Under the pieces are notes generated by a model that was not told where the DNA came from, ran no database searches, and worked only from the letters and a program-made list of their open reading frames with translations. Made by a program: the position numbers and the translations under genes. Positions 3,742 to 57,400 of a stretch of 64,000 bases of DNA are shown here, piece after piece. Origin of the DNA: Porphyromonas vaginalis (GTDB taxonomy: Bacteria; Bacteroidota; Bacteroidia; Bacteroidales; Porphyromonadaceae); NCBI RefSeq assembly GCF_958301595.1, contig NZ_CATQJU010000001.1, positions 868,001 to 932,000 on the forward strand, read 5' to 3'. Every line of letters starts with the position of its first letter. The first letter of the stretch is position 1.

Positions 3742-4545
3742 TTAGTTCTGGTCTGACTGGTCAAGCCACTGATTGTTGTGCTCGATGAGCTGCTCACGCT
3801 CTTCGTCAGATAGGCTCTGGTAGCCAGACTGCTGCACCTTGTCTAGAAGCTGGCGGTAACGAGCTGCCTGAGCATCTTGTAGGGTCTCTTGCTGCCGTGC
3901 AGTGCGCTGTCGCCGACGCTGGTATAGCCCTAAGCCACAGCCCCACAGGATGCCAGCGAGGTGAGCGATCAGCCCGCCTACGTTGTACCCGCCATAGGCG
4001 AGGAGTAGGAGGAGGAAGACGAAGAGCCCTACTTGCCACACACGGAGCGATCCGATCAAGGGTAAGGGCATCTCTTCGCGAGGAGCTGAGCCGATCATAT
4101 AGCCTACGAGTGCTATGACCGATGCGGAGGCACCCACGAGCGGTAGCCCCAGTAGGAGCACCCCACTGCTACGTAGCAATGTGGTGAAAAGCACGAAGGC
4201 GCCTCCACCTACGATAGCTCCCCCGAGATAGCTCCAGACGAACTGCCGCCATCCGCTGAGGCGCAGCAGCATCTCGCCAAAGAGCCACAGCAAGAGCAGA
4301 TTGAGCAGGAGGTGCAGACCACTATTGTGCAGGAGCGTGTAGGTGACGATCGTCCAGGGGCGACGCCACAGAGCATCAGGCGAGCAGGAGAGGTAGAGCT
4401 GATCCACGACACTGCGCGTCCACTGCGTGGGTAGCGGTGCAGGTAGCTGACGAACGATAAAGTCCGCCAGCCAGAAGGCTACCAGCAGGAGCGTGATGCC
4501 CCACAGAACTTGCCGATTAGGATCTATACGACTCGCCAAACGCAT
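3742..4545 (-). CDS. Rhomboid family intramembrane serine protease (second of two)
   Basis: Start chosen at the ATG at 4543-4545 (MRLASRIDPN); a longer frame exists but its N-terminus is an out-of-frame reading of the preceding gene. About 267 residues with six or so membrane segments, a GASAS motif holding the nucleophilic Ser, and an IAHLAG motif holding the catalytic His in the last helix. The C-terminal 55 residues are charged and cytoplasmic, with a DUF6576-like 'LLDKVQQSGYQSLSDEEREQL' tail that is seen on many Bacteroidetes rhomboids. It would cleave transmembrane proteins within the inner membrane. It overlaps the first rhomboid gene by 29 bp, indicating translational coupling. Confidence 0.88.
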   Translation of the reverse strand: MRLASRIDPNRQVLWGITLLLVAFWLADFIVRQLPAPLPTQWTRSVVDQLYLSCSPDALWRRPWTIVTYTLLHNSGLHLLLNLLLLWLFGEMLLRLSGWRQFVWSYLGGAIVGGGAFVLFTTLLRSSGVLLLGLPLVGASASVIALVGYMIGSAPREEMPLPLIGSLRVWQVGLFVFLLLLLAYGGYNVGGLIAHLAGILWGCGLGLYQRRRQRTARQQETLQDAQAARYRQLLDKVQQSGYQSLSDEEREQLIEHNNQWLDQSDQN

Positions 4546-5236
4546 TGTACAGCTTGCCTTGCTTGCGCCACAACAGTATGAGTAGCAGACCACCTAGCAT
4601 GCCCCCCAGATGGGCAAAGTGTGCCACGTCGCTCTGTAGATTTGCCACGCCGAGAAGGAGCTCGATCACTCCGTAGCCGATGACAAAGTACTTAGCTCTG
4701 ATTGGTATGGGGATGAAGAAGAGATAGATCGCTGCATTGGGGTAGAGCCAGCCGAAGGCGAGGAGGAGCCCAAAGACAGCTCCCGAAGCACCTATCGTCA
4801 GGAGCTGATTGATAAAGAACCTCGTAGCCATGCGGGTGCCATCGGGGAAGGCGATCACCTCATAGCCCGCCACCTCTCGAACGGTCGTCAAGCCCCAGAC
4901 GAGCTCCTGCGAGAGCGCTGCGGTCAGTCCGCAGACCAGGTAGAAGAGCAGGTACCGCTTAGCACCCCAAGTGCGCTCGATGGTCGTGCCAAACATAAAG
5001 AGCGCAAACATATTGAAGAAGAGGTGCGTGAAGCTCCCGTGAAGGAACATATAGGTCAGTGGCTGCCAGATGTGAAAGTCCTGAGCCGTCACATAGTGCA
5101 GCCCGAGGAGTCCCGTCAGATCAATGCCCACTCGGGGCAGTACTTGCTGAGCAATGTAGCAGATTGTGTTGATGATGAGTAGGTTGAGTGTCACGGGCGG
5201 AATCTGTATCCGAGGTGATGTATCGAATGAGTGCAT
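4517..5236 (-). CDS. Rhomboid family intramembrane serine protease (first of two)
   Basis: Start placed at the ATG at 5234-5236 (MHSFDTSPRI), which follows the LptD stop by about 30 bp; the longer frame runs back into the LptD gene. About 239 residues, membrane segments throughout, with the nucleophile in GASGAVFG and the catalytic His in 'DVAHFAHLGGMLGG'. The N-terminal loop contains 'HGSFTHLFFNMFALFMFG', the classic rhomboid L1/TM2 region with His and Asn. Substrates are unknown. It is followed immediately by a second, divergent rhomboid. Confidence 0.92.
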   Translation of the reverse strand: MHSFDTSPRIQIPPVTLNLLIINTICYIAQQVLPRVGIDLTGLLGLHYVTAQDFHIWQPLTYMFLHGSFTHLFFNMFALFMFGTTIERTWGAKRYLLFYLVCGLTAALSQELVWGLTTVREVAGYEVIAFPDGTRMATRFFINQLLTIGASGAVFGLLLAFGWLYPNAAIYLFFIPIPIRAKYFVIGYGVIELLLGVANLQSDVAHFAHLGGMLGGLLLILLWRKQGKLYNAFGESYRS

Positions 5237-8292: not shown

Positions 8293-8340
8293 CTAAATAG
8301 TGACGTGCAACGGCATACCGCTCACCGCCTACCACACGTC

Positions 8341-8423
8341 TGACGCATTATAACCGCCTTTTCAGGAGCAACACATGAGCGACAAGCGAGGCTTGGATGA
8401 GTTCACTATATAATGTGTCACCC
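8341..8423 (+). repeat. MITE copy M1 (ISAs1-type ends)
   Basis: Starts TGACGCATTATAA and ends TATAATGTGTCACCC, with an interior reading CAGGAGCAACACATGAGCGA then GGCTTGGATGAG. The same unit recurs at 8820, 18942, 40673 and 57199. Its ends match the terminal inverted repeat of the ISAs1 element at 39326-40644. It encodes no protein. The outermost bases of the left end have diverged. Confidence 0.75.
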
Positions 8424-8429
8424 ATGGAT

Positions 8430-8819
8430 TGGCTGTTAGCTATTGGCTGTTAGCTATCGGAACCATCGGAGCTATCAGAGTGATCGGATCTCTAATCTCT
8501 AACTTCTAACCTCTAATCTCTAATAACATATCTTTACAGGGAAATTCGTCCGATTCCCTCCTTTCTCGAATATCCACGTGGAAAATCTCAAATCTCCACG
8601 TGGATATTTTTTCTTCCCCACGTGGGGGCGAATCATTTCTTCCGAAGTTTCATTTGATTCTTCCGAAGTTTCATTTCATTCCTCCGAAGAATTTTTTATT
8701 CTCCACGTGGAGATTTCGAAATATCCACGTGGAAATCAGTTTTCCTCGACACAGCCCCGTATCGATATGTAACCTGTTCTAAATAATCGTAGCGAGTCGG
8801 CGCCGATTTTTCCCAGCTA
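8430..8819 (+). repeat. Composite CCACGTGG repeat, copy A
   Basis: Modules in order: short TTGGCTGTTAGCTA repeats (8430-8460), ATCGGAA-type octamers, five heptamers of the TCTCTAA type (8489-8523), a conserved 45-bp stretch, then CCACGTGG palindromes at 8574, 8596 and 8618 (exact 22-bp steps). A 77-bp spacer follows with three 21-bp CTTCCGAAG repeats (8639-8689), then CCACGTGG at 8703 and 8725, and a conserved tail ending in TTTTTCCCAGCTAGGG. The block is flanked by MITEs in opposite orientation. No protein is encoded. Confidence 0.85.
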
Positions 8820-8908
8820 GGGGTGACACATTATTATAATGCGCTCATCTATGCCTCGATTGTCCTTGTCTGTAGCTCCTGATAGAGCGATTGTAATACG
8901 TCAGCCCA
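8820..8908 (-). repeat. MITE copy M2 (inverted relative to M1)
   Basis: Reads GGGTGACACATTATTATAAT at its left end and GTAATACGTCAGCCC at its right end, so it is the MITE in minus orientation. With M1 it brackets repeat copy A as an inverted pair. The stretch from here to 9166 shows no gene; short open frames there look spurious. Confidence 0.7.
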
Positions 8909-9166
8909 GCGATCTTTATTTTGTAGTTACAGAAGTTTTTACTACTTTTGAATTAGAAAGGGCGTACCGATGTACTTTCTTAGGACTTTTTTCTCCCGAG
9001 CGAGTGAGGCCCCTTCTGAGTAAACACCCCCTTGACGGAGGGGTCACGTGAGAGGGCTTGTAGCTAGATACGTGGAGCTATCTTAAGTCGCTGGATTTAT
9101 GATAGTCCTTCGAGAGACGGCTAGCTGGCAAGTTCCTACTGATTCATTAACCTTAAGAAGATTCTT

Positions 9167-10099: not shown

Positions 10100-10240
10100 A
10101 AGAAATAAAACTTCGGAGGAGCCAAATGAAACTTCCGAAGATTTTTTTTGCGCCTACGTGGAGAATAAACAGCCACGTGGAGATTTGAGATTCTCTACGT
10201 GAGACTGCTTGCAAAAGTATCTACGTGGCTATTCTTGTGA
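10100..10240 (+). repeat. Degenerate CCACGTGG repeat, copy E
   Basis: Contains AAATAAAACTTCGGAGGAG and ACTTCCGAAG core units in the copy-B orientation, then CTACGTGG, CCACGTGG and TCTACGTG sites with decayed palindromes, and a GAGACTGCTTGCAAAAGT piece resembling the 27-bp hairpin. It is an eroded partial copy between araC and the ABC exporter. Confidence 0.6.
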
Positions 10241-19079: not shown

Positions 19080-19358
19080 GGCTGTTAGCTATCAGAGTGA
19101 TCGGATCTCTAATCTCTAACTTCTAATTTCTAACCTCTAGCACCTTTACATATCTTTACGGGGAGATTCGTCCGATTCCCTCCTTTCTCGAATATCCACG
19201 TGGGGAATCTCAAATCTCCACGTGGATGTTTTTCTTTTTCCACGTGGACGCGAAATAAAACTTCGGAGGAATCAAATGAAACTTCGGAAGAATCAAATGA
19301 AACTTCGGAGGAATTTTTTCTTTTCCACGTGGGAATTTCGAAATATCCACGTGGAAAT
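19080..19358 (+). repeat. Composite CCACGTGG repeat, copy B (left part, core inverted)
   Basis: Five heptamers at 19106-19140 precede CCACGTGG palindromes at 19196, 19218 and 19240 (22-bp steps). The core at 19261-19311 has three 21-bp repeats reading CTTCGGAGG/CTTCGGAAG, the reverse complement of the copy-A core. Palindromes follow at 19325 and 19347. The third-to-fourth site distance is 85 bp as in copies A, C and D. The tail resumes at 20933 after the inserted IS. Confidence 0.85.
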
Positions 19359-20932
19359 TGTCCTCTTCCTGAAAAAAGTACACAGTTGGGAAGGTATTAC
19401 TGAGATGGTACTCGGGTCATTTTTGTTAGTCCTGTGAGTGTACTCATTTGTTAGTTTTGCTCTTGCTGGGGTACACGACTTGTGGTCGTTTTTACTGCGG
19501 AGGTACACAAAGATAGGTCTTTGTGTGGAGTTAAGCGGCATGAGCTCGGAGATTTGAGGCTCGGAGCTTTTGGTGAATTGTTCTTAGATGTCTGTTTCTT
19601 AGAGGGTTGTGTGGTTATAGGGTTGGGGTAATCTGGTATGAGCATCTGCATCGGAGTCTTCTTGTTGATGGCTCGATGAGGACGCGCTGTGTTATAGAGA
19701 GCAATCGTTTGCGAGAGGATCTCTCGAACTTGATCTATGGGCTTATCCTCGAAGTTGTAGAGCCAGTCGTTCTTGATGATCCCGTTAAGTCGCTCTGCCA
19801 TAGCGTTGTGGAGAGGGTTGCCTGTCTGGGTGACACTGGTTACGATGCCTAGGCTGGCCTCGTAGTCGGTCATCTGCTTGGAGACATATTGACAGCCTCG
19901 GTCGCTATGGAAGATGAGCCCTTTGAGGTCAAAGCCATGCTTCTGGTAGAAGTCAACGGTCTGTCTTAGTGCGTTGTAGGGGCCCTCTGTGGAGAGCGTG
20001 GGCTGCAGGTCAAAGCCGGTGATGATGCGGCTATAAGCGTCCATCGTCAGGGAGAGATATGCGAAGCCCCCTAAACATTTGACGTAGGTTATGTCTGAGA
20101 CGGTGAGCCGGCAATGGTCTGTGGCGATGTATTTAGGGGTGGTGTTCAGGTGGTCTTGGAAGCCGTGATTGACCACGCCCTTGGTCGTCTGGGGTGGACG
20201 CTTGCGCTTGCGACTTCTCAGTAGCATGTCGTTGGCTCCTAATACTTTGTATAGCCAGTCGCGACCTACTTGGAAGGTCCCTTTGAAGTATTCGTTGGCA
20301 CACTGCTGGAGGGTGTCTACGCCTGCTTTGGGGAGTTGACCGCGCACATACTGGCAATAGTGTAGGACGGAGGCTACTTTGACATCTTCGTCTTGCTCTG
20401 TGAAGGTGTGCTTGTAGTAGCCTTTGCGGCTGACTTCTAGTAGCTGACAAAGGTAGGTTATGGAGAGCTTTTGACCTCTCACTTTGGCGGATTCAAGCGT
20501 TTTCACGGCTGCAAATCGGTCTTTTTTTTTTAGATCAATATGGTAGCGATTCAAGACCTCTTCGAGTAGTGTCTTATTGACTAAGGCCTTGCTCTCAGCC
20601 TGGAAGAGGGCTGCTTTGAGGCGAGCGTTTTCGCGCTTGAGTTCTGCGTACTCTGGATCTACGTCTTTGTTCTTGTTTGTCTTGCTCATAGTGCTACTGC
20701 TGCTTTGGTTGGGTAACTCTACTCCAAAGGTACGCAACCAATTTCGAATGGTGCGTGTGGTAATGCCGTAGCGCTGGCTGGTCGTGGCGATGCTCTCGCC
20801 AGTGGCTAGGAGGTCATCAATGACTCTCCACTTGAAATCTAGGGGATATCCCTTTCGTCCTCGGTTACTTTTTTCTTCTTTCATAGTTGTTGGGGTTGGC
20901 TTCCCAACTGTGTACTATTTCAGGAGAGGACA
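19359..20932 (-). mobile_element. IS3-family insertion sequence inserted in repeat copy B
   Basis: 1574 bp. The left end reads TGTCCTCTTCCTGAAA and the right end, read inward, TGTCCTCTCCTGAAA; both then continue to AGTACACAGTTGGGAAG, giving imperfect terminal inverted repeats with the IS3-type TG start. The host sequence GGAAATCACTT, intact elsewhere, is split as GGAAAT before and AATCACTT after, a 3-bp AAT target duplication. It carries one long transposase frame (19451-20884). Confidence 0.92.
19451..20884 (-). CDS. IS3-family transposase, OrfA and OrfB in one frame
   Basis: 477 residues. Residues 10-60 are a helix-turn-helix domain (ATTSQRYGITTRTIRNWLR), followed by a leucine-zipper-like coil (about 78-115). 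The DDE integrase core starts near 220, with acidic residues in VSDITYVKCL and HSDRGCQYVS and the Glu in 'NAMAERLNGIIKNDW'. IS3 elements usually need a -1 frameshift between OrfA and OrfB; here both are in one frame across an A10 tract (minus strand, 20522-20531). A slip in either direction there would stop soon afterwards and yield an OrfA-like protein. Residues after about 425 are a low-complexity Lys/Ser/Thr tail. Confidence 0.92.
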   Translation of the reverse strand: MKEEKSNRGRKGYPLDFKWRVIDDLLATGESIATTSQRYGITTRTIRNWLRTFGVELPNQSSSSTMSKTNKNKDVDPEYAELKRENARLKAALFQAESKALVNKTLLEEVLNRYHIDLKKKDRFAAVKTLESAKVRGQKLSITYLCQLLEVSRKGYYKHTFTEQDEDVKVASVLHYCQYVRGQLPKAGVDTLQQCANEYFKGTFQVGRDWLYKVLGANDMLLRSRKRKRPPQTTKGVVNHGFQDHLNTTPKYIATDHCRLTVSDITYVKCLGGFAYLSLTMDAYSRIITGFDLQPTLSTEGPYNALRQTVDFYQKHGFDLKGLIFHSDRGCQYVSKQMTDYEASLGIVTSVTQTGNPLHNAMAERLNGIIKNDWLYNFEDKPIDQVREILSQTIALYNTARPHRAINKKTPMQMLIPDYPNPITTQPSKKQTSKNNSPKAPSLKSPSSCRLTPHKDLSLCTSAVKTTTSRVPQQEQN

Positions 20933-21000
20933 AATCACTTTTCCCCGACACAGCACCGTATCGATATGTAGTTGGATCTAAATTATTGTAACGAGCCAGC
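20933..21000 (+). repeat. Composite CCACGTGG repeat, copy B (right tail)
   Basis: Begins AATCACTTTTCCCCGACACA and continues CCGTATCGATATGTAG, identical in type to the tails of copies A and D. It is the part of copy B displaced by the IS. No MITE is seen on this side. Confidence 0.75.
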
Positions 21001-21056
21001 GGTGAATTTGCCCTATAGGAAAAAGTCTCTAGTTCGTATGGTCAAGGGAATATTAC

Positions 21057-22550: not shown

Positions 22551-22599
22551 AAAAAAGCCTGCCGACTATGGCGACAGGCACAAAAAAGCCGCACTGCGG
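22551..22599 (-). terminator. Tandem rho-independent terminators ending the candidate RNA
   Basis: Two minus-strand hairpins each end in T6: one stem at 22588-22599 (CCGCAGTGCGGC, then TTTTTT) and a larger one at 22557-22579 (GCCTGTCG ... CGGCAGGC, then TTTTTT). They do not match the orientation of cls and so point to a minus-strand transcript. Confidence 0.75.
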
Positions 22600-22846
22600 A
22601 TTAGAAAAACTCCGAAGAACATACAAGTTTTGAGGATCCATCACCCTCTGAAGTCCACTGGAGCAACGAGTGCTCACACACTCACGAGGAGTCTGTCGAG
22701 GCCGGTCATCAGGTAGATAGAATGATCTCGGAATAGTCGATTAAATTTGAAGAGTTTCCGTATCGAGCAGTGCGGCTATGGGTCTGCGCCGTCTACATAT
22801 ACTATGTACTAAGATCACGCTGTGCATGCACCTATCGGTGTCTTGC
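22551..22846 (-). ncRNA. Candidate structured non-coding RNA, about 300 nt
   Basis: No credible protein frame occurs here, yet a complete minus-strand transcription unit is visible: a Bacteroidetes promoter at 22852-22883, an expected start near 22846, internal hairpins (GTGCATGCAC; GAGTG/CACTC around 22676; a GAGGGTGATGGATCCTC loop) and two terminators at the end. Its length and isolation suit a housekeeping RNA such as 6S or the Bacteroidales-1 class, but no diagnostic motif was recognised. It lacks the RNase P core and the tRNA-like 3' end of tmRNA. Existence is well supported; identity is open. Confidence 0.6.
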
Positions 22847-28848: not shown

Positions 28849-29757
28849 TTAACCTTCGATCTGCTGCCAGAATGGAGTCGCCACCACTCGGCTTACCAAA
28901 GCCTCTGGCGTGGTAGCTAGTTCCTCGGCGAGGTGAGTGTAGGTCGCCTCTATCGCCTTTCGATGCGTAAGTCCGTTGGGGATCTCATCGGTCTCGACGA
29001 GGAGTGCCTTCGCCTCATAGGCTAAGTGCAAAGCCTCAGCATCGTAGCGACGGCCGAAGGAGAGCGCAAAGCCCTTGCTCAGCATCATCTGCGCCACCTC
29101 TCCTCTAGCGCGAAAGCCGTGTAGCACCATCGGGGGGAGCTGCGCAAACTCTTGCGCCATCTGACTACGCAGCTCAATCATCTCAGCCCACGCACGTACC
29201 GCGTGTAGGAGGATAGGGCGATGTAGCTGACAGGCTAAGCGCATCTGCGCCTCTAGCCAGACGAGTTGCTCTGCGAGTGTTGCATTGCTCCGCACCTTGT
29301 CGATGCCACACTCGCCGACAGCGACGATCTGAGGAGCAGACGCCAGGCAACTCTGCATCTGATCAATGAGTGCTGTCAGACTTTGCTCTGGAGGCAGTGA
29401 CCAGGGATGAAAGCCTATCGAGTAGAGCTGGGCCTCCTCGATTGCGACACCTCCGCTCCACTCGAGACTGTTGCATAAAGGCGAATCCCTGTGTTGCTTT
29501 CGGGATTCGGCTTCGGTCACATACGGAGGTATGCTCCCTTCAGACCTTACCCTCAGCGCCTTGCGCTTAATCCTTTCTGCAAAGTCAGGACAATCTTGCA
29601 AGCAAGATTGTGAGACTGTTGACTTTTGCAACAGTCTCCACTCTGTGTAGGTGAGCGAGCGAATTGCTTGGCAGCCCGTCTCGGGGCTATGCGTGTGGCA
29701 GTCTAGAAGTTTGAGACGGCCTGTGCCTTGCTCTGCTGCTCTGATCTCCTGGCTCAT
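28849..29757 (-). CDS. tatD: TatD family metal-dependent hydrolase, with a 60-residue repeat-derived insertion
   Basis: 302 residues against about 240-260 for the family. The start [10 protein letters not shown] holds the HxH metal motif. Later motifs are [15 protein letters not shown], '[11 protein letters not shown]', [10 protein letters not shown] and LVETDEIPN. Residues about 41-100 match a 175-bp repeat that lies in the gene (29464-29638) with a 5-bp CACTC target duplication. Together that is 180 bp, so the frame is kept and no stop is introduced. TatD enzymes are nucleases or other hydrolases. The start overlaps the rnpA-yidD stop by 4 bp. Confidence 0.9.
29464..29638 (-). repeat. 175-bp MITE-like element inside tatD
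   Basis: Left end GAGACTGTTGCA and right end TGCAACAGTCTC are inverted repeats, flanked by CACTC on both sides (29459-29463 and 29639-29643). It includes a perfect CAATCTTGC / GCAAGATTG hairpin (29591-29610), and its last 27 bp (29612-29638) form a hairpin with 10-bp arms. A second, intergenic copy lies at 47476-47650. No transposase is encoded. Confidence 0.9.
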
Positions 29758-39325: not shown

Positions 39326-40644
39326 CAGGGCTGACGCATTATAAATGACAAGCTGATTGTGATCTTAAGAGGGAGAATGAAAGGCCTAAAAAGTGAACTC
39401 AATATAGTCGCAAAAACTCTTCATTTTTCTCTTCAAAAAGCTTGTCCATGTCGTAGGTTTTTCGTACCTTTATAACTGATAATCAATACAATGAGTAATC
39501 TCTATGAGCATATTCAATCAGCTTCTAATGGTCGAAGATCCACGCATAAATCGATGCAAAAAGTTCCCCCTAGGATACATCCTTACGACGGTATTCACAG
39601 CTACTCTCTCTGGCTGCTCCTCTTGGTACGAAATAGAAGACTATGCAGAGGAGTACAAGGTTGATCTGGAGGCTCTATATGAGCGTATATCAGGAGAGTC
39701 GAGCTCTTGGGGAGTCCCCTCTCACGACACGCTCAATCGGGCTATCAGTCTTCTTGATCCCAATCAGATAGAGCTAGTCTACAAAGCCTTCCTGGAGGAA
39801 AGCTTTGAGATAACAACGGGCAAGCACATCTGTCTAGATGGTAAGACGATGCGAGGCGTTAAGAAGCTAGACTTCGATGCCGACAGCCATTGCGTTACAG
39901 CCTTTGACCCTCAGCAGCAAGCTTCATTGGCTCAGGTATATATCTCCACTAAGTCTAATGAAATCAATGCCATCAAAGAAATTCTCAAGGCTCTAGATCT
40001 GCGAGACACCGTCATCACTATTGACGCTATCGGCACTCAAACCGATATAGCAACCGCAGTGGTCGGGAAGGGTGGTGACTACCTACTCCAAGTTAAAGAT
40101 AATCAGAAACTAACGAAGGAAGAGATGCAAAGTTTCTTTTGTCCCCTCTACGATGCTCATATCGTGCATCAAGAGCAGAAAGACTTTGGTCACGGGCGAA
40201 TAGAAACACGCACGATGAGTAGCATCGTAAACCCTTTATCTCTAGATCCAGACTCGACTTTAGACAAATGGAAAGGGCTGAAAAGTATCCATATGATGAC
40301 AAGAGTACGGACGGACAAGAAGACAGATAAGTCCAGCACCGAAACCACCTTCTATATTTCTAGCCTGACAGACGGAGCGGAGATCTTCAAATTAATACGT
40401 GAGCATTGGGCTGTGGAAAACAAGCTACACTATATGCTGGATATGCTTTTTAGAGAGGACTACTCTACCAAGAGAGCCCGCAACGCAGCTCAGAACATGA
40501 ACATTATAAACAAGATAAACCTGACTATCATTCAACGGCTTAAAGACAAGCTCAAAGGCACATCAACGCTACGCCTGAGGAAAAAGCTTGCACGAATGAC
40601 TCCAGAGGAAATCTTCGAAATGGAATTATAATGCGTCAGCCCTG
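39326..40644 (+). mobile_element. ISAs1-family insertion sequence
   Basis: 1319 bp bounded by CAGGGCTGACGCATTATAA on the left and its exact inverted repeat on the right. Flanks ATGGCGTATG (39316-39325) and ATAGCGTATG (40645-40654) form a 10-bp target duplication with one mismatch. The transposase stop codon lies inside the right inverted repeat. Confidence 0.93.
39504..40631 (+). CDS. ISAs1 family transposase (H-repeat-associated type)
   Basis: 375 residues, plus strand. 'EDPRINRCKKFPLGYILTTV' at the start, GVPSHDTLNRAISLL, ICLDGKTMRGVKKLD, 'TIDAIGTQTDIATAVVGKGGDYLLQVKDNQ' pattern and 'IREHWAVENKLHYMLDMLF' near the end are the hallmarks of the family. The YREK-like final Glu is in the last motif. 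It cuts and pastes this IS. The frame is complete and appears intact. Confidence 0.93.
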   Translation: MSIFNQLLMVEDPRINRCKKFPLGYILTTVFTATLSGCSSWYEIEDYAEEYKVDLEALYERISGESSSWGVPSHDTLNRAISLLDPNQIELVYKAFLEESFEITTGKHICLDGKTMRGVKKLDFDADSHCVTAFDPQQQASLAQVYISTKSNEINAIKEILKALDLRDTVITIDAIGTQTDIATAVVGKGGDYLLQVKDNQKLTKEEMQSFFCPLYDAHIVHQEQKDFGHGRIETRTMSSIVNPLSLDPDSTLDKWKGLKSIHMMTRVRTDKKTDKSSTETTFYISSLTDGAEIFKLIREHWAVENKLHYMLDMLFREDYSTKRARNAAQNMNIINKINLTIIQRLKDKLKGTSTLRLRKKLARMTPEEIFEMEL

Positions 40645-40799: not shown

Positions 40800-41110
40800 A
40801 GCTTAGAACTGACTACATATCGAAACGGTGCTGTGTTGGGGAAAAGTGATTTCCACGTGGATATTTCGAAATCCCCACGTGGAGAATAAAAAATTCTTCG
40901 GAGGAATGAAATAAAACTTCGGAGGAATGAAATGAAACTTCGGAAGAAATGATTCGCCCCCACGTGGGGAATAAAAAACATCCACGTGGAGATTTAAGAT
41001 TCCCCACGTGGATATTCGAGAAAGGAGGGGATCGGACGAATTTCCCCGTAAAGATATGTAAATAGAGACTAGAGGTTAGAAGTTAGAGATTTGAAATTAG
41101 GGATCGGAAC
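40800..41110 (-). repeat. Composite CCACGTGG repeat, copy C
   Basis: Minus orientation. CCACGTGG at 40853, 40875, 40960, 40982 and 41004 (22-bp steps; 85 bp across the core). The core has CTTCGGAGG/CTTCGGAAG repeats, the same relative orientation as copy A. Six heptamers of the TAGAAGT type follow at 41063-41104. From about 41110 to the rnc stop (41282) no feature is recognised. Confidence 0.85.
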
Positions 41111-44841: not shown

Positions 44842-46164
44842 CTAATCCTCTGACGGCTGTTCAAGTGCTCGCTGCGCTTTGAGCTCCTTAAACTTAGCCT
44901 GCATCGTCGGGTTCTTGTAGGTGAGCTTGTGAATGGTCAGTTCCTCCGCCTTGTCGTTGGCTAGGCGCAAGTAGTTTTCGCTACCCATAAGAAGCCCTTT
45001 GATCTTTTGCAGATGCTCGATAGAGGTATCGATTTCTTTGATCGCCTTCAGAAACTTATCATTTGCTAAGCGTATGTCGCGCCCGAATCTGTTCTTGAAG
45101 TCCTTCACTTTCTCCTCAAAGTGTGTGATGTCGATGGACTGCCGCTGCGCCTCGAAGAGCTGCTTGCGTATATCGAGGCTCTTGCGTGAGGCGGAGACGA
45201 GGAGCGTGATGAGTGGCACGAAGAACTGGGGACGGATCACATACATCTTCTCGTAGCGGTGTGACTTGTCGACGATACCGCCGTTATAGAGTTCGTTGTC
45301 GCCCTCCAGGAGCGACACGAGGACGGCGTACTCGCACCCCTTCTTGCGTCGATCCTCGTCAAGCTTCTTGAGAAAGTCTTCGTTGCGATGCTTCGTGGAG
45401 GTCGTGTCAGACTCGTTTTTCATCTCAAACATGATGGAGATGTACTCTAGCTCACCTTCATCGGCATAGTCACGAAAGACAAAGTCTCCCTTGGTGCCAC
45501 CGACCACGTCGTTGTCCTTCTCAAAGTATGCGTTGGGATAAAAGGGTCTCAGCTTCTGCTCAAACTCCAAGGCGCAGTGCTGCTCGAGTGTCTCACCCAG
45601 CATCTTGGTGGACATGCGAGACTTGAGGTCTTTGTAAAAGTCTACCTCTTGCTCTAGCACCTTCTTCTCTAGCTCGTGTTGCTCTTGCAGTTGCTTGACC
45701 TCTAGCTGAGCCTCTTTGCTCTGTAGCTCCACCTGAGCCTGCAATGCTGTGATCTCTTGCTCCTTAGCTTGTAGTGCTTTCTGGCTCTCGGCCTGCACCT
45801 TCAGGCGCTCATTGTCTCGTAGGCTCTCTTGCTGCGCTAGCTGCGCCTGCAGCTCGATGAGCGTTTGCTCTTTGTTGGCCAGAGCTAGCTTCAGATCCGC
45901 TTGGCTCTTCTCGCCCATAGCGTCGAGCTTGCTCTGGAGCTGTACCAGCTCGTTGTCTCGCTTTGAGATCTGCTCCTTGAGCGTCGCCTCAGCCTGTGCC
46001 ACAGCGAGCTGCTGGGCCTGTCGGCTCTGCTCCTCGACCAGCGCCACGCGCTCAGCGAGCGCCTTGTCAAAAGCCTCGCCACGCACCTGCTCTAGCAGCT
46101 GCGCATAACCACGCTCATCGATACTAAACGGCTGATGGCAATTCGGACAAACCAATTCGTGCAT
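44842..46164 (-). CDS. DUF2130 domain protein
   Basis: 440 residues. The N-terminus has a CPNCHQPF zinc-type CxxC motif followed by a long Gln/Glu/Ala coiled coil (about 25-180). The DUF2130 domain (about 185-400) contains '[20 protein letters not shown]', '[11 protein letters not shown]' and '[19 protein letters not shown]'. The fold is nuclease-like (PD-(D/E)xK, inferred from the D...E/K pattern), but activity is not established. Its leader contains a heptamer array at 46184-46232. Confidence 0.8.
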
Positions 46165-46183
46165 AGGGATTAGAGGTTGGATG

Positions 46184-46232
46184 TTAGAAGTTAGAGATTA
46201 GAAGTTAGAGATTAGGGATTAGAAGTTAGAGA
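46184..46232 (-). repeat. Heptanucleotide tandem array (seven units)
   Basis: Seven contiguous heptamers, TTAGAAG, TTAGAGA, TTAGAAG, TTAGAGA, TTAGGGA, TTAGAAG, TTAGAGA. The same heptamers occur in repeat copies A, B and C with five, five and six units. ATCGGAA-type octamers follow to about 46290. Here the module lies without the CCACGTGG sites, in the leader of the DUF2130 gene. Confidence 0.85.
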
Positions 46233-46314
46233 GGGATCGGAAGGTATCTGAGCTATCGGAAGTTTCGGAGTGATCCGATCGGCCTCTCTCTACTTGAGAC
46301 TACGTACATTCCAC

Positions 46315-47475: not shown

Positions 47476-47650
47476 TACGCTATTGCATAAAGGCGAATCG
47501 CTGTGTTGTTTTCGGAATTCGGCTTAGGTCACATACGGATGTGTGCTCCCTTCAGGCCTCACCCTCAGCGCCTTGCGCTTCATCCTTTCTGCAAAGTCCG
47601 GATAATCTTGCAAGCAAGATTGTGAGACAGTTGACTTTTGCAACAGTCTC
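47476..47650 (+). repeat. 175-bp MITE-like element, intergenic copy
   Basis: Very similar to the copy in tatD (for example TTGCATAAAGGCGAATC and AATCTTGCAAGCAAGATTGT), with an intact right hairpin and a diverged left end. Both copies lie in the same plus-strand direction. The plus-strand reading frame across it (shared 'GIRLRSHT' peptide) is probably not a gene. Confidence 0.85.
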
Positions 47651-47808
47651 TACTTGCAAATATACACCTTCTCAGTCTAAGGAGATGTGGAAAGCTTGGC
47701 TAGTTACGGCTCTAGGCGAACCGTCATAAAACAAGATAAGCGTAGGAGCCATGTAGCTCACTACGCTTATCTGTTCTTACTCTAAACCAATATCTTTGTC
47801 TTTCGAAG

Positions 47809-56996: not shown

Positions 56997-57198
56997 TCCA
57001 CGTGGGCGTGATTCATTTCTTCCGAAGTTTCATTTGATTCTTCCGAAGTTTCATTTCATTCCTCCGAAGAATTTTTTATTCTCCACGTGGAGATTTTGAA
57101 ATATCCACGTGGAAATCACTTTTCCCCGACACAATGCCGTTTCGATATGTAGTCAGGTCTAAATTATTGTAGCGAATCGGCGTCGATTTTTCCCAGCT
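56997..57198 (+). repeat. Composite CCACGTGG repeat, copy D (left part missing)
   Basis: The third palindrome (56998) is followed by a CTTCCGAAG core in copy-A orientation, then palindromes at 57083 and 57105 and the conserved tail to CCCAGCTAGGG. The first two palindromes and the heptamers are absent; the sequence is cut at the IS end. Confidence 0.85.
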
Positions 57199-57297
57199 AG
57201 GGCTGACGCATCATAATTGCTTTTTCAGAAACTACACATTAGCGACCAGCAAGGAGTAGAGTGGTCGATGAGATCATTATATATAATGCGTCACCCC
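57199..57297 (+). repeat. MITE copy M5
   Basis: AGGGCTGACGCATCATAA at the left, TATATAATGCGTCACCCCT at the right, with the interior matching M1. It follows repeat copy D directly. Confidence 0.75.
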
Positions 57298-57400
57298 TGG
57301 AAAGGTTGTAGGCTCAACTATCAAATGTATTCATTTGTCCTATCTTTCTTATCTGGGGGGTGTCGGGGAGCTTGTGGGGCATAGGGTCATCTTGAGTCCA

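Follow-up and report, generated by a model that had tools for sequence, protein, structure and literature searches.

The window is the whole 64,000-nucleotide stretch of Porphyromonas vaginalis DNA that was analysed (G000:C1:868001-932000, the source genome being labelled G000), and positions below are counted from its first letter unless another genome is named. It carries palindrome arrays built on CCACGTGG, the element that bears them and insertion sequences, as follows.

8335..8909, plus strand: copy A of the MITE, 575 bp with both terminal repeats included, the repeats being located at up to 4 mismatches in 18
8335..8424, no strand given: left end unit of copy A, about 90 bp, with TGACGCATTATA-type repeats at its own ends
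8568..8617, plus strand: terminator-like hairpin at one end of array A, GAATAT-CCACGTGG, a 14-nt loop, CCACGTGG-ATATT and a T-rich tract; fold z -5.3
8574..8732, plus strand: array A, with CCACGTGG at 8574, 8596, 8618, 8703 and 8725 and CYTCCGAAG at 8639, 8660 and 8681
8820..8909, no strand given: right end unit of copy A, an inverted counterpart of the left unit, with which it pairs in the predicted fold
10100..10240, minus strand: decayed copy E
19196..19354, plus strand: array B, its central block inverted relative to A
19359..20932, minus strand: IS3-family insertion within copy B, with a transposase frame at 19451-20884 (NCBIfam NF033516, E 1.6e-61; ends and an AAT repeat)
20933..21013, plus strand: leftover right part of the copy B core, from a repeat-family search
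39326..40644, plus strand: ISAs1-family insertion sequence, 1319 bp, with MITE-type 18-bp terminal repeats and no CCACGTGG; candidate autonomous parent
39504..40631, plus strand: ISAs1-family transposase, 375 aa (NCBIfam NF033564, E 5.7e-84, score 282 against a cut-off of 70; Pfam DDE_Tnp_1_assoc and DDE_Tnp_1)
40853..41011, minus strand: array C, with a terminator-like stem at 41017-40976 on the minus strand
56998..57112, plus strand: array D, its left part (first two sites) missing
57200..57298, no strand given: right end unit of copy D

The window also contains degenerate TTAGAGGTTAGAAGTTAGAGATT-type repeats, beside copy C (41063-41104) and alone at 46157-46247, and tracts of this type flank other array copies as well. 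Two direct 175-bp copies, 92% identical, lie at 29468-29642 and 47480-47654, and the Rfam model Bacteroidales-1 (suggested 6S RNA) matches at 22581-22777 on the minus strand (71 bits, cut-off 60).

A sequence-only reading had described CCACGTGG palindromes at steps of 22, 22, 85 and 22 bp, and the observation is confirmed, the array being larger than first described. The window holds 19 copies of CCACGTGG against 0.46 expected (sd 0.66; 100 shuffles, largest 3), the highest count of all 256 8-bp palindromes, with the runner-up at 6 copies; ten pairs of it stand at the 22-bp step, and the other palindromes among the 256 compared have zero. The steps are exact in A and B, and C has the same series backwards (22, 85, 22, 22). 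Copy D keeps the register (85, 22) but shows three sites only, because its first two are missing, and copy E is decayed as described, with one exact site and site-like steps of 19, 22 and 26. The 85-bp gap is not the plain spacing it was taken for: it contains three more palindromes (CYTC-S-GARG) at 21 to 21.5 bp, and an intact array (A, B, C) consists of eight centres at steps of 22, 22, 21.5, 21, 21, 21.5 and 22 bp. The mean step of 21.6 bp is near two helical turns but not exactly two. Neighbouring sites do lie near one face of the DNA, as had been proposed, but the array as a whole drifts by about one third of a turn, because its seven steps make 151 bp, or 14.4 turns at 10.5 bp per turn. 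The bounds of two copies also changed. The limits 8430-8819 given for copy A enclose its core, but the element reaches further, to about 8335-8909 with its terminal repeats, and copy B, read as two pieces (the second at 20933-21000), is one copy cut by the IS3-family element at 19359-20932.

The copies share their 18-bp ends, CAGGGCTGACGCATTATA, with the 1319-bp ISAs1-family insertion sequence. Allowing up to 4 mismatches, we found 20 stretches in which such ends enclose arrays; the ends are 519-769 bp apart in 19 of them and 259 bp in the last. Exact 17-mers of the end bracket six places 1.3 kb apart, one of which is the ISAs1 insertion sequence of the window. The end 17-mer has 92 matches at up to 1 mismatch, 53 of them exact, and its control has 0. 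Target duplications of 9-14 bp with at most 1 mismatch flank 9 of the 20 two-ended copies and were not found in the other 11, copy A among them; pairing the flanks of different copies as a control gave 0 of 380. The ISAs1-family insertion sequence (39326-40644) has a target duplication too. By eye, the end units of about 90 bp outside the core end in TGACGCATTATA-type repeats in either orientation. The features that define a MITE are present: a size under about 1 kb (the 20 end pairs span 259-769 bp), terminal repeats in common with an autonomous element, target duplication, an ISAs1 transposase in the candidate parent, and no transposase inside, copy A, the one checked, having no frame of 80 aa or more. 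The copies had been presented as bound loci of origin unknown; judged from the shared terminal repeats, the target duplications, the copy number, the register and the modularity, all read from sequence, they are almost certainly copies of a high-copy ISAs1-type MITE carrying an eight-palindrome array. Because the ends are shared, the MITE is probably mobilised in trans by an ISAs1-family transposase. As a separate observation by eye, to the right of the array at L279 an element with ends GAGGCTGTTGCA / TGCAACAGTCTC apparently lies inside the end unit of a G025 array.

Throughout the 2.52-Mb genome we counted 260 CCACGTGG N14 pairs and 74 pairs at the 85-bp step, with 0 of either in the reversed-pattern control, and about a hundred array copies. 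A similarity search with copy A returned at least 86 matches (best 40 of 250 candidates scored). The search of Porphyromonas genomes for the N14 pair, proposed as a check, was positive in 5 of 26 genus genomes, with 260, 198, 64, 5 and 3 pairs. A scan of named genomes found the pair in P. uenonis DSM 23387 and in an uncultured Porphyromonas (among 80 listed of at least 117 stretches); in our judgement most of its matches in GC-rich genomes are probably chance. A locus of genome G024 reads identically to a P. uenonis DSM 23387 locus. Our G000 set pooled 108 places from several searches, of which 106 stretches were examined and 105 match the element; the non-matching stretch is L221, L189 and L190 overlap and may be one copy, and two places near 2.45 and 2.48 Mb are left out. 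Copy lists are complete to 802 kb in G000 and to 1.1 Mb in a second genome, G001, and counts beyond these limits are lower bounds. In G000, all five sites are exact at the standard register in 52 copies, and 20 more have one mismatch in 40. Loss of the 22-bp register genome-wide had been set beforehand as the outcome that would refute a phased array; among the 103 G000 copies with at least 2 exact sites, every step is in register in 92. The 11 off-register copies comprise three that are short of a 21-bp unit (step 64), five in which a step departs by one base from the standard sums, one with a single step of 21 and two with only a further site at a distance.

We then compared G001, which we take to be P. 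asaccharolytica DSM 20707, where loci were found through exact pairs and only steps near unit multiples enter the step list. Twenty of its 40 loci have steps of 22, 22, 64, 22 and 22, that is, three sites, two central palindromes and three sites, eight in all. The others mostly show the same frame with a site lost, and four have an added 22-bp unit. By eye, the G001 arrays occur in at least three flank contexts, namely the G000-type MITE, a second element and alone, and the array is therefore a module of its own. The second element is a repeat with ends near GCTAATTCCTATTTTGAGGTGCTGG that carries the same kind of palindrome array (L287, L293, L295, L300, L304, L313, L316 and L322). Flank similarity to a G000 locus of the examined set was seen for 16 of the 40 loci, in some through repeats only; arrays at orthologous places have flanks with about 81-97% identity. 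Alignment of three pairs (L318/L242, L292/L206 and L306/L222) puts a central palindrome of one species opposite CCACGTGG or a one-base variant of it in the other.

These properties bear on the proposal that the array is a set of phased operators, with a dimeric protein on each palindrome at about two helical turns, loaded cooperatively along about 160 bp and spread by MITEs. The in-register steps of 92 of 103 G000 copies, the eight sites of the standard arrays in both G000 and G001 once central palindromes are counted, the CCACGTGG-type sites opposite central palindromes in the three orthologous pairs, and the three or more G001 flank contexts would all suit such a reading. So would the occurrence of 22-bp arrays of other sequence in Prevotella RUG759, RUG12386, G263 and G172 (CGTGCACG), although that recurrence outside Porphyromonas comes down to a few multi-site genomes, perhaps unrelated. 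Single changes in G001 sites fell in the outer two positions per side in 39 of 45 cases (steps +22 and -22), but in G000 they were not confined there (22 of 45 outer). The constant register may partly reflect youth, as the flanks align without gaps too, successive steps slip gradually from one face, the covariation beyond the end pair described below would not be expected of self-contained dyads, and a candidate binding protein was not found; reading through the neighbour genes of lone arrays picked out no regulator gene. The claim that sites are kept and spacers vary held in direction, though by a modest margin when copies were anchored without the sites. In 30 copies anchored on flank alone, site divergence was 3.9% and spacer divergence 9.8% (Mann-Whitney p = 0.049); in 86 unique arrays, chosen partly by their sites, conservation was 97.5% in site columns, 88.0% in spacers and 89.1% in 60 left-hand bases. 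We have moderate confidence in selection on the sites, and phased operators are a possible but rather doubtful account of the array.

An RNA hairpin had been named as an alternative to protein binding, and for the outermost pair it has the better direct evidence, although termination leaves the register and the central sites unexplained. The outermost palindrome pair with a T-run after it would form an intrinsic-terminator-like RNA hairpin, consisting of an 8-bp CCACGUGG stem, an outward extension of about 5 bp, a 14-nt loop and a U-tract. Where TTTTT follows the array (101 distinct ends), outer pair 1 was complementary in 96, against 69.9 (sd 3.1) after permutation, as T-A in 80 and G-C in 16, and outer pair 2 was complementary in 83, against 74.3 (sd 2.0). 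No excess was seen at outer pairs 3 to 6 of the T-run ends, nor at outer pairs 1 and 2 of the 102 ends without a T-run (52 against 55.5 and 34 against 34.5 permuted). Departures at outer pairs 3 and 5 were mostly U-G wobbles on the T-run strand, with 23 T-G against 7 C-A and 25 G-T against 2 A-C plus 3 C-T. Complementarity is clearly in excess at outer pairs 1 and 2, as compensatory change would give, but the copies share descent and the permutation p-values therefore overstate independence; the T-A and G-C classes at outer pair 1 could be two old subfamilies. Among 130 adjacent G001 pairs, joint changes at position 8 of one site and position 1 of the next were seen in 3, against 0.19 expected. 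The three are ends at L301, L305 and L311; of these, L305 and L311 have the same 30-mer inverted and so are one sequence. Positions 7 and 2 co-changed in 1 of the same 130 pairs, against 0.28 expected. At T-run ends positions 7 and 2 gave three A-C mismatches and one A-T, and one non-T-run end also had an A-T change at positions 8 and 1. First-pair site positions did slightly better within copies than between (0.949 against 0.914 in G001; 0.974 against 0.967 in G000). Spacer (loop) pairing, both in neighbouring pairs and nested across the array, was rejected, being no better within copies than between in 37 G001 and 85 G000 arrays.

Predicted folds of five T-run end pieces had z of -4.7 to -7.0, and the copy A end without a T-run had -1.9; z was -10.1 for the whole element and -5.4 and -5.3 for arrays, values to which the palindromes contribute by lowering the energy by themselves. 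A stable hairpin followed by a U-tract, as in an intrinsic terminator, is present at the 101 ends, the other 102 having no T-run. A simple terminator scan did not call the copy A hairpin, a point against this reading; the scan considers loops of 3-8 only, and this loop has 14 nt. In the stretch L221 a lone P-N14-P pair, 33 bp downstream of an open frame's end and ahead of a T-run, was called terminator-like, and no known RNA family matched the arrays in Rfam at gathering cut-offs. Placement after gene 3' ends, also expected of an intrinsic terminator, failed: by a simple frame caller, the upstream gene reads into the hairpin in 18 of 40 G001 and 41 of 89 G000 cases, which is no preference, and the copies are therefore not placed as gene terminators. 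The downstream gene reads away from the hairpin in 25 of 34 cases (p = 0.009) and in 52 of 86 (p = 0.066), a bias that would suggest an insulator or leader rather than a gene-end terminator, and the G000 tandem cases show a weak same-direction excess (33 against 18, p = 0.049); given several tests and the simple frame caller, these orientation p-values are suggestive only. We lean modestly towards a MITE with a terminator-like hairpin as the reason that the end palindromes are kept. Each insertion would then drop a transcription stop or insulator into an intergenic region, usually on one strand only, and the remaining phased sites would be further tandem units of 21-22 bp that grew along the same pattern. 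Termination does not account for the constant register, for the three central sites, for the exchange of a central site for CCACGTGG or a one-base variant at nearly the same position in a related species, or for the similar-looking arrays of a few other Bacteroidales.

The array might instead be a functionless palindromic minisatellite that grew by slippage in a selfish MITE, with the hairpin arms kept complementary by templated (quasipalindrome) correction. The central block is inverted in some copies without change of length, the 64- and 85-bp variants are one 21-bp unit apart and four G001 loci have extra 22-bp units, all of which favour this view, and P. gingivalis has in BrickBuilt a MITE with a 23-nt minisatellite (PMC4596501). 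However, neutral correction does not predict a complementarity excess limited to T-run ends, and the array persists both in several flank contexts and at the orthologous places (flank identity about 81-97%). We consider this explanation unlikely, and return to the hairpin-bearing MITE as the preferred reading.

The layout of copies along the chromosome raised a further possibility, that the arrays organise it, marking it at intervals and with polarity for a nucleoid or segregation protein. Over the first 802 kb, 43 clusters (places less than 2.5 kb apart being merged in real and simulated data) had a gap CV of 0.45 against 0.84 at random, which 0 of 4000-5000 simulations reach, with one gap under 8 kb against 9.5 to 11.1 expected. 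Orientation was +30/-15 in 0-0.8 Mb and +5/-36 in 0.9-2.0 Mb (Fisher p = 2e-7, with region limits picked after the data were seen), but +3/-3 in 0.8-0.9 Mb and +4/-9 in 2.0-2.5 Mb. The rRNA operons at 622 kb (minus) and 1496 kb (plus) point away from a place between them and suggest an origin there, yet the replichores could not be mapped from GC skew. Regularity of spacing is no more than marginal in G001 (CV 0.68, p 0.044; exact pairs, first 1.1 Mb). Even spacing and polarity could also come from target immunity, loss of close copies or a replication-linked insertion bias. Partition sites of the parS type are few and clustered near the origin. The present copies are spread over the whole chromosome and fail that description, which leaves the partition-like role once proposed for the array unsupported. 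Replication-linked behaviour of insertion sequences is already a subject of the literature, judging from PMC4549789 and PMC5371812. We hold chromosome-organising marks to be very improbable. A CRISPR-like array was rejected, the sites being too short and the spacers homologous between copies (by eye).

Among known systems, phased operator arrays of dimeric regulators such as MetJ and ArgR have repeated dyads at near-integral helical spacing; the present array differs in being MITE-borne and in its hairpin covariation at the end pair, with no regulator found. REP and BIME sequences with their RAYT transposases are likewise palindromes dispersed between genes, and their part in termination and supercoiling is debated; the mobile unit described here is set apart by its 18-bp terminal repeats, its target duplications and its ISAs1 partner. 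Another likeness is BrickBuilt of P. gingivalis, which (PMC4596501) has 19 copies in ATCC 33277, contiguous 23-nt direct repeats and IS5-type ends GAGACCTTTGCA. Both are intergenic, multi-copy, transposase-free Porphyromonas MITEs with internal short tandem units and predicted long stem-loops. The present element differs in its roughly hundred array copies, its 8-bp palindromes with 14-bp spacers at 21-22 bp, its ISAs1-type ends, its target duplications of about 10 bp and its eight-site register. Membership was rejected on two grounds from that source: the ends are CAGGGCTGACGCATTATA and not the GAGACCTTTGCA / TGCAAAGGTCTC of its Table 2, and the 8-bp sites are separated by 14-bp spacers, unlike spacerless 23-nt tandem repeats. 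A short dispersed repeat in the review PMC10969869 also has a terminator-like sequence, and the passages of the review used for the comparison include no phased multi-palindrome array. P. gingivalis already provides MITEs with internal repeats, but a search of one open-licence library turned up no paper on a MITE that bears an eight-site palindrome array, keeps its register from one related species to another and occurs in two or more flank contexts. Should the end hairpins stop transcription, this 2.5-Mb genome would contain about a hundred dispersed mobile terminators; should a protein bind the array, transposition would have supplied it with very many new sites.

Outside Porphyromonas, we surveyed the order for CACGTG pairs, the first searches being fixed at 22 bp, so that only the extra sites and a gap scan in G172 (4-34) are free of that bias. 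A pair was present in 12 of 392 Bacteroidales genomes, three of them Porphyromonas, and 7 of the other 9 had a single pair. The reversed control is also a pair of palindromes and was positive in 11 genomes; single pairs are therefore at chance level, and recurrence outside the genus rests on few multi-site genomes. Prevotella RUG759 has 40 CACGTG pairs at 22 bp, of which the 39 used form 15 dispersed arrays, and RUG12386 has 3. Self-dyad or spacer-hairpin covariation was rejected for the Prevotella arrays (39 of 40 pairs, the C186 pair being left out by hand). In G172, of another Bacteroidales family and brought to light by the reversed control, CGTGCACG pairs scanned over gaps 4-34 stood at N14 in 8 of 9 cases and at N18 in 1, at seven places, with the same geometry on a different palindrome and spacers that look unrelated:

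C1:44060, C1:120897, C1:222674, C4:7049, C4:21096 and C4:34107 of G172: N14 places (L354-L358, L375-L383)
C2:364847 of G172: N18 place

By eye, the Prevotella and G172 spacers seen do not have the T-run pattern of the Porphyromonas ends. These arrays allow a speculative generalisation, which we hold to be fairly unlikely, that palindrome rows at about 22 bp (an 8-bp dyad and a 14-bp spacer) recur between genes throughout Bacteroidales, each lineage having its own palindrome (CCACGTGG, CACGTG with varied flanks, CGTGCACG), and that a rapidly evolving family of dimeric DNA-binding proteins reads them; in Porphyromonas one such row would have been captured by transposable elements and amplified hundredfold, rewiring the places of the protein.

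Several further arrangements were noted in these genomes. Some sites in the Prevotella RUG759 arrays (L126, L127, L131, L132 and L363-L373) are GGCACGTGCC instead of CCACGTGG. G263 (L359, G263:C201:12300-13500) has about ten tandem 22-bp units of AAAACGACACGTGGTTTT type plus 4 nt. In a Bacteroidaceae MAG (L113, about 775-830), CCACGTGG and ACACGTGT alternate at 10 and 12 bp, about one per helical turn.
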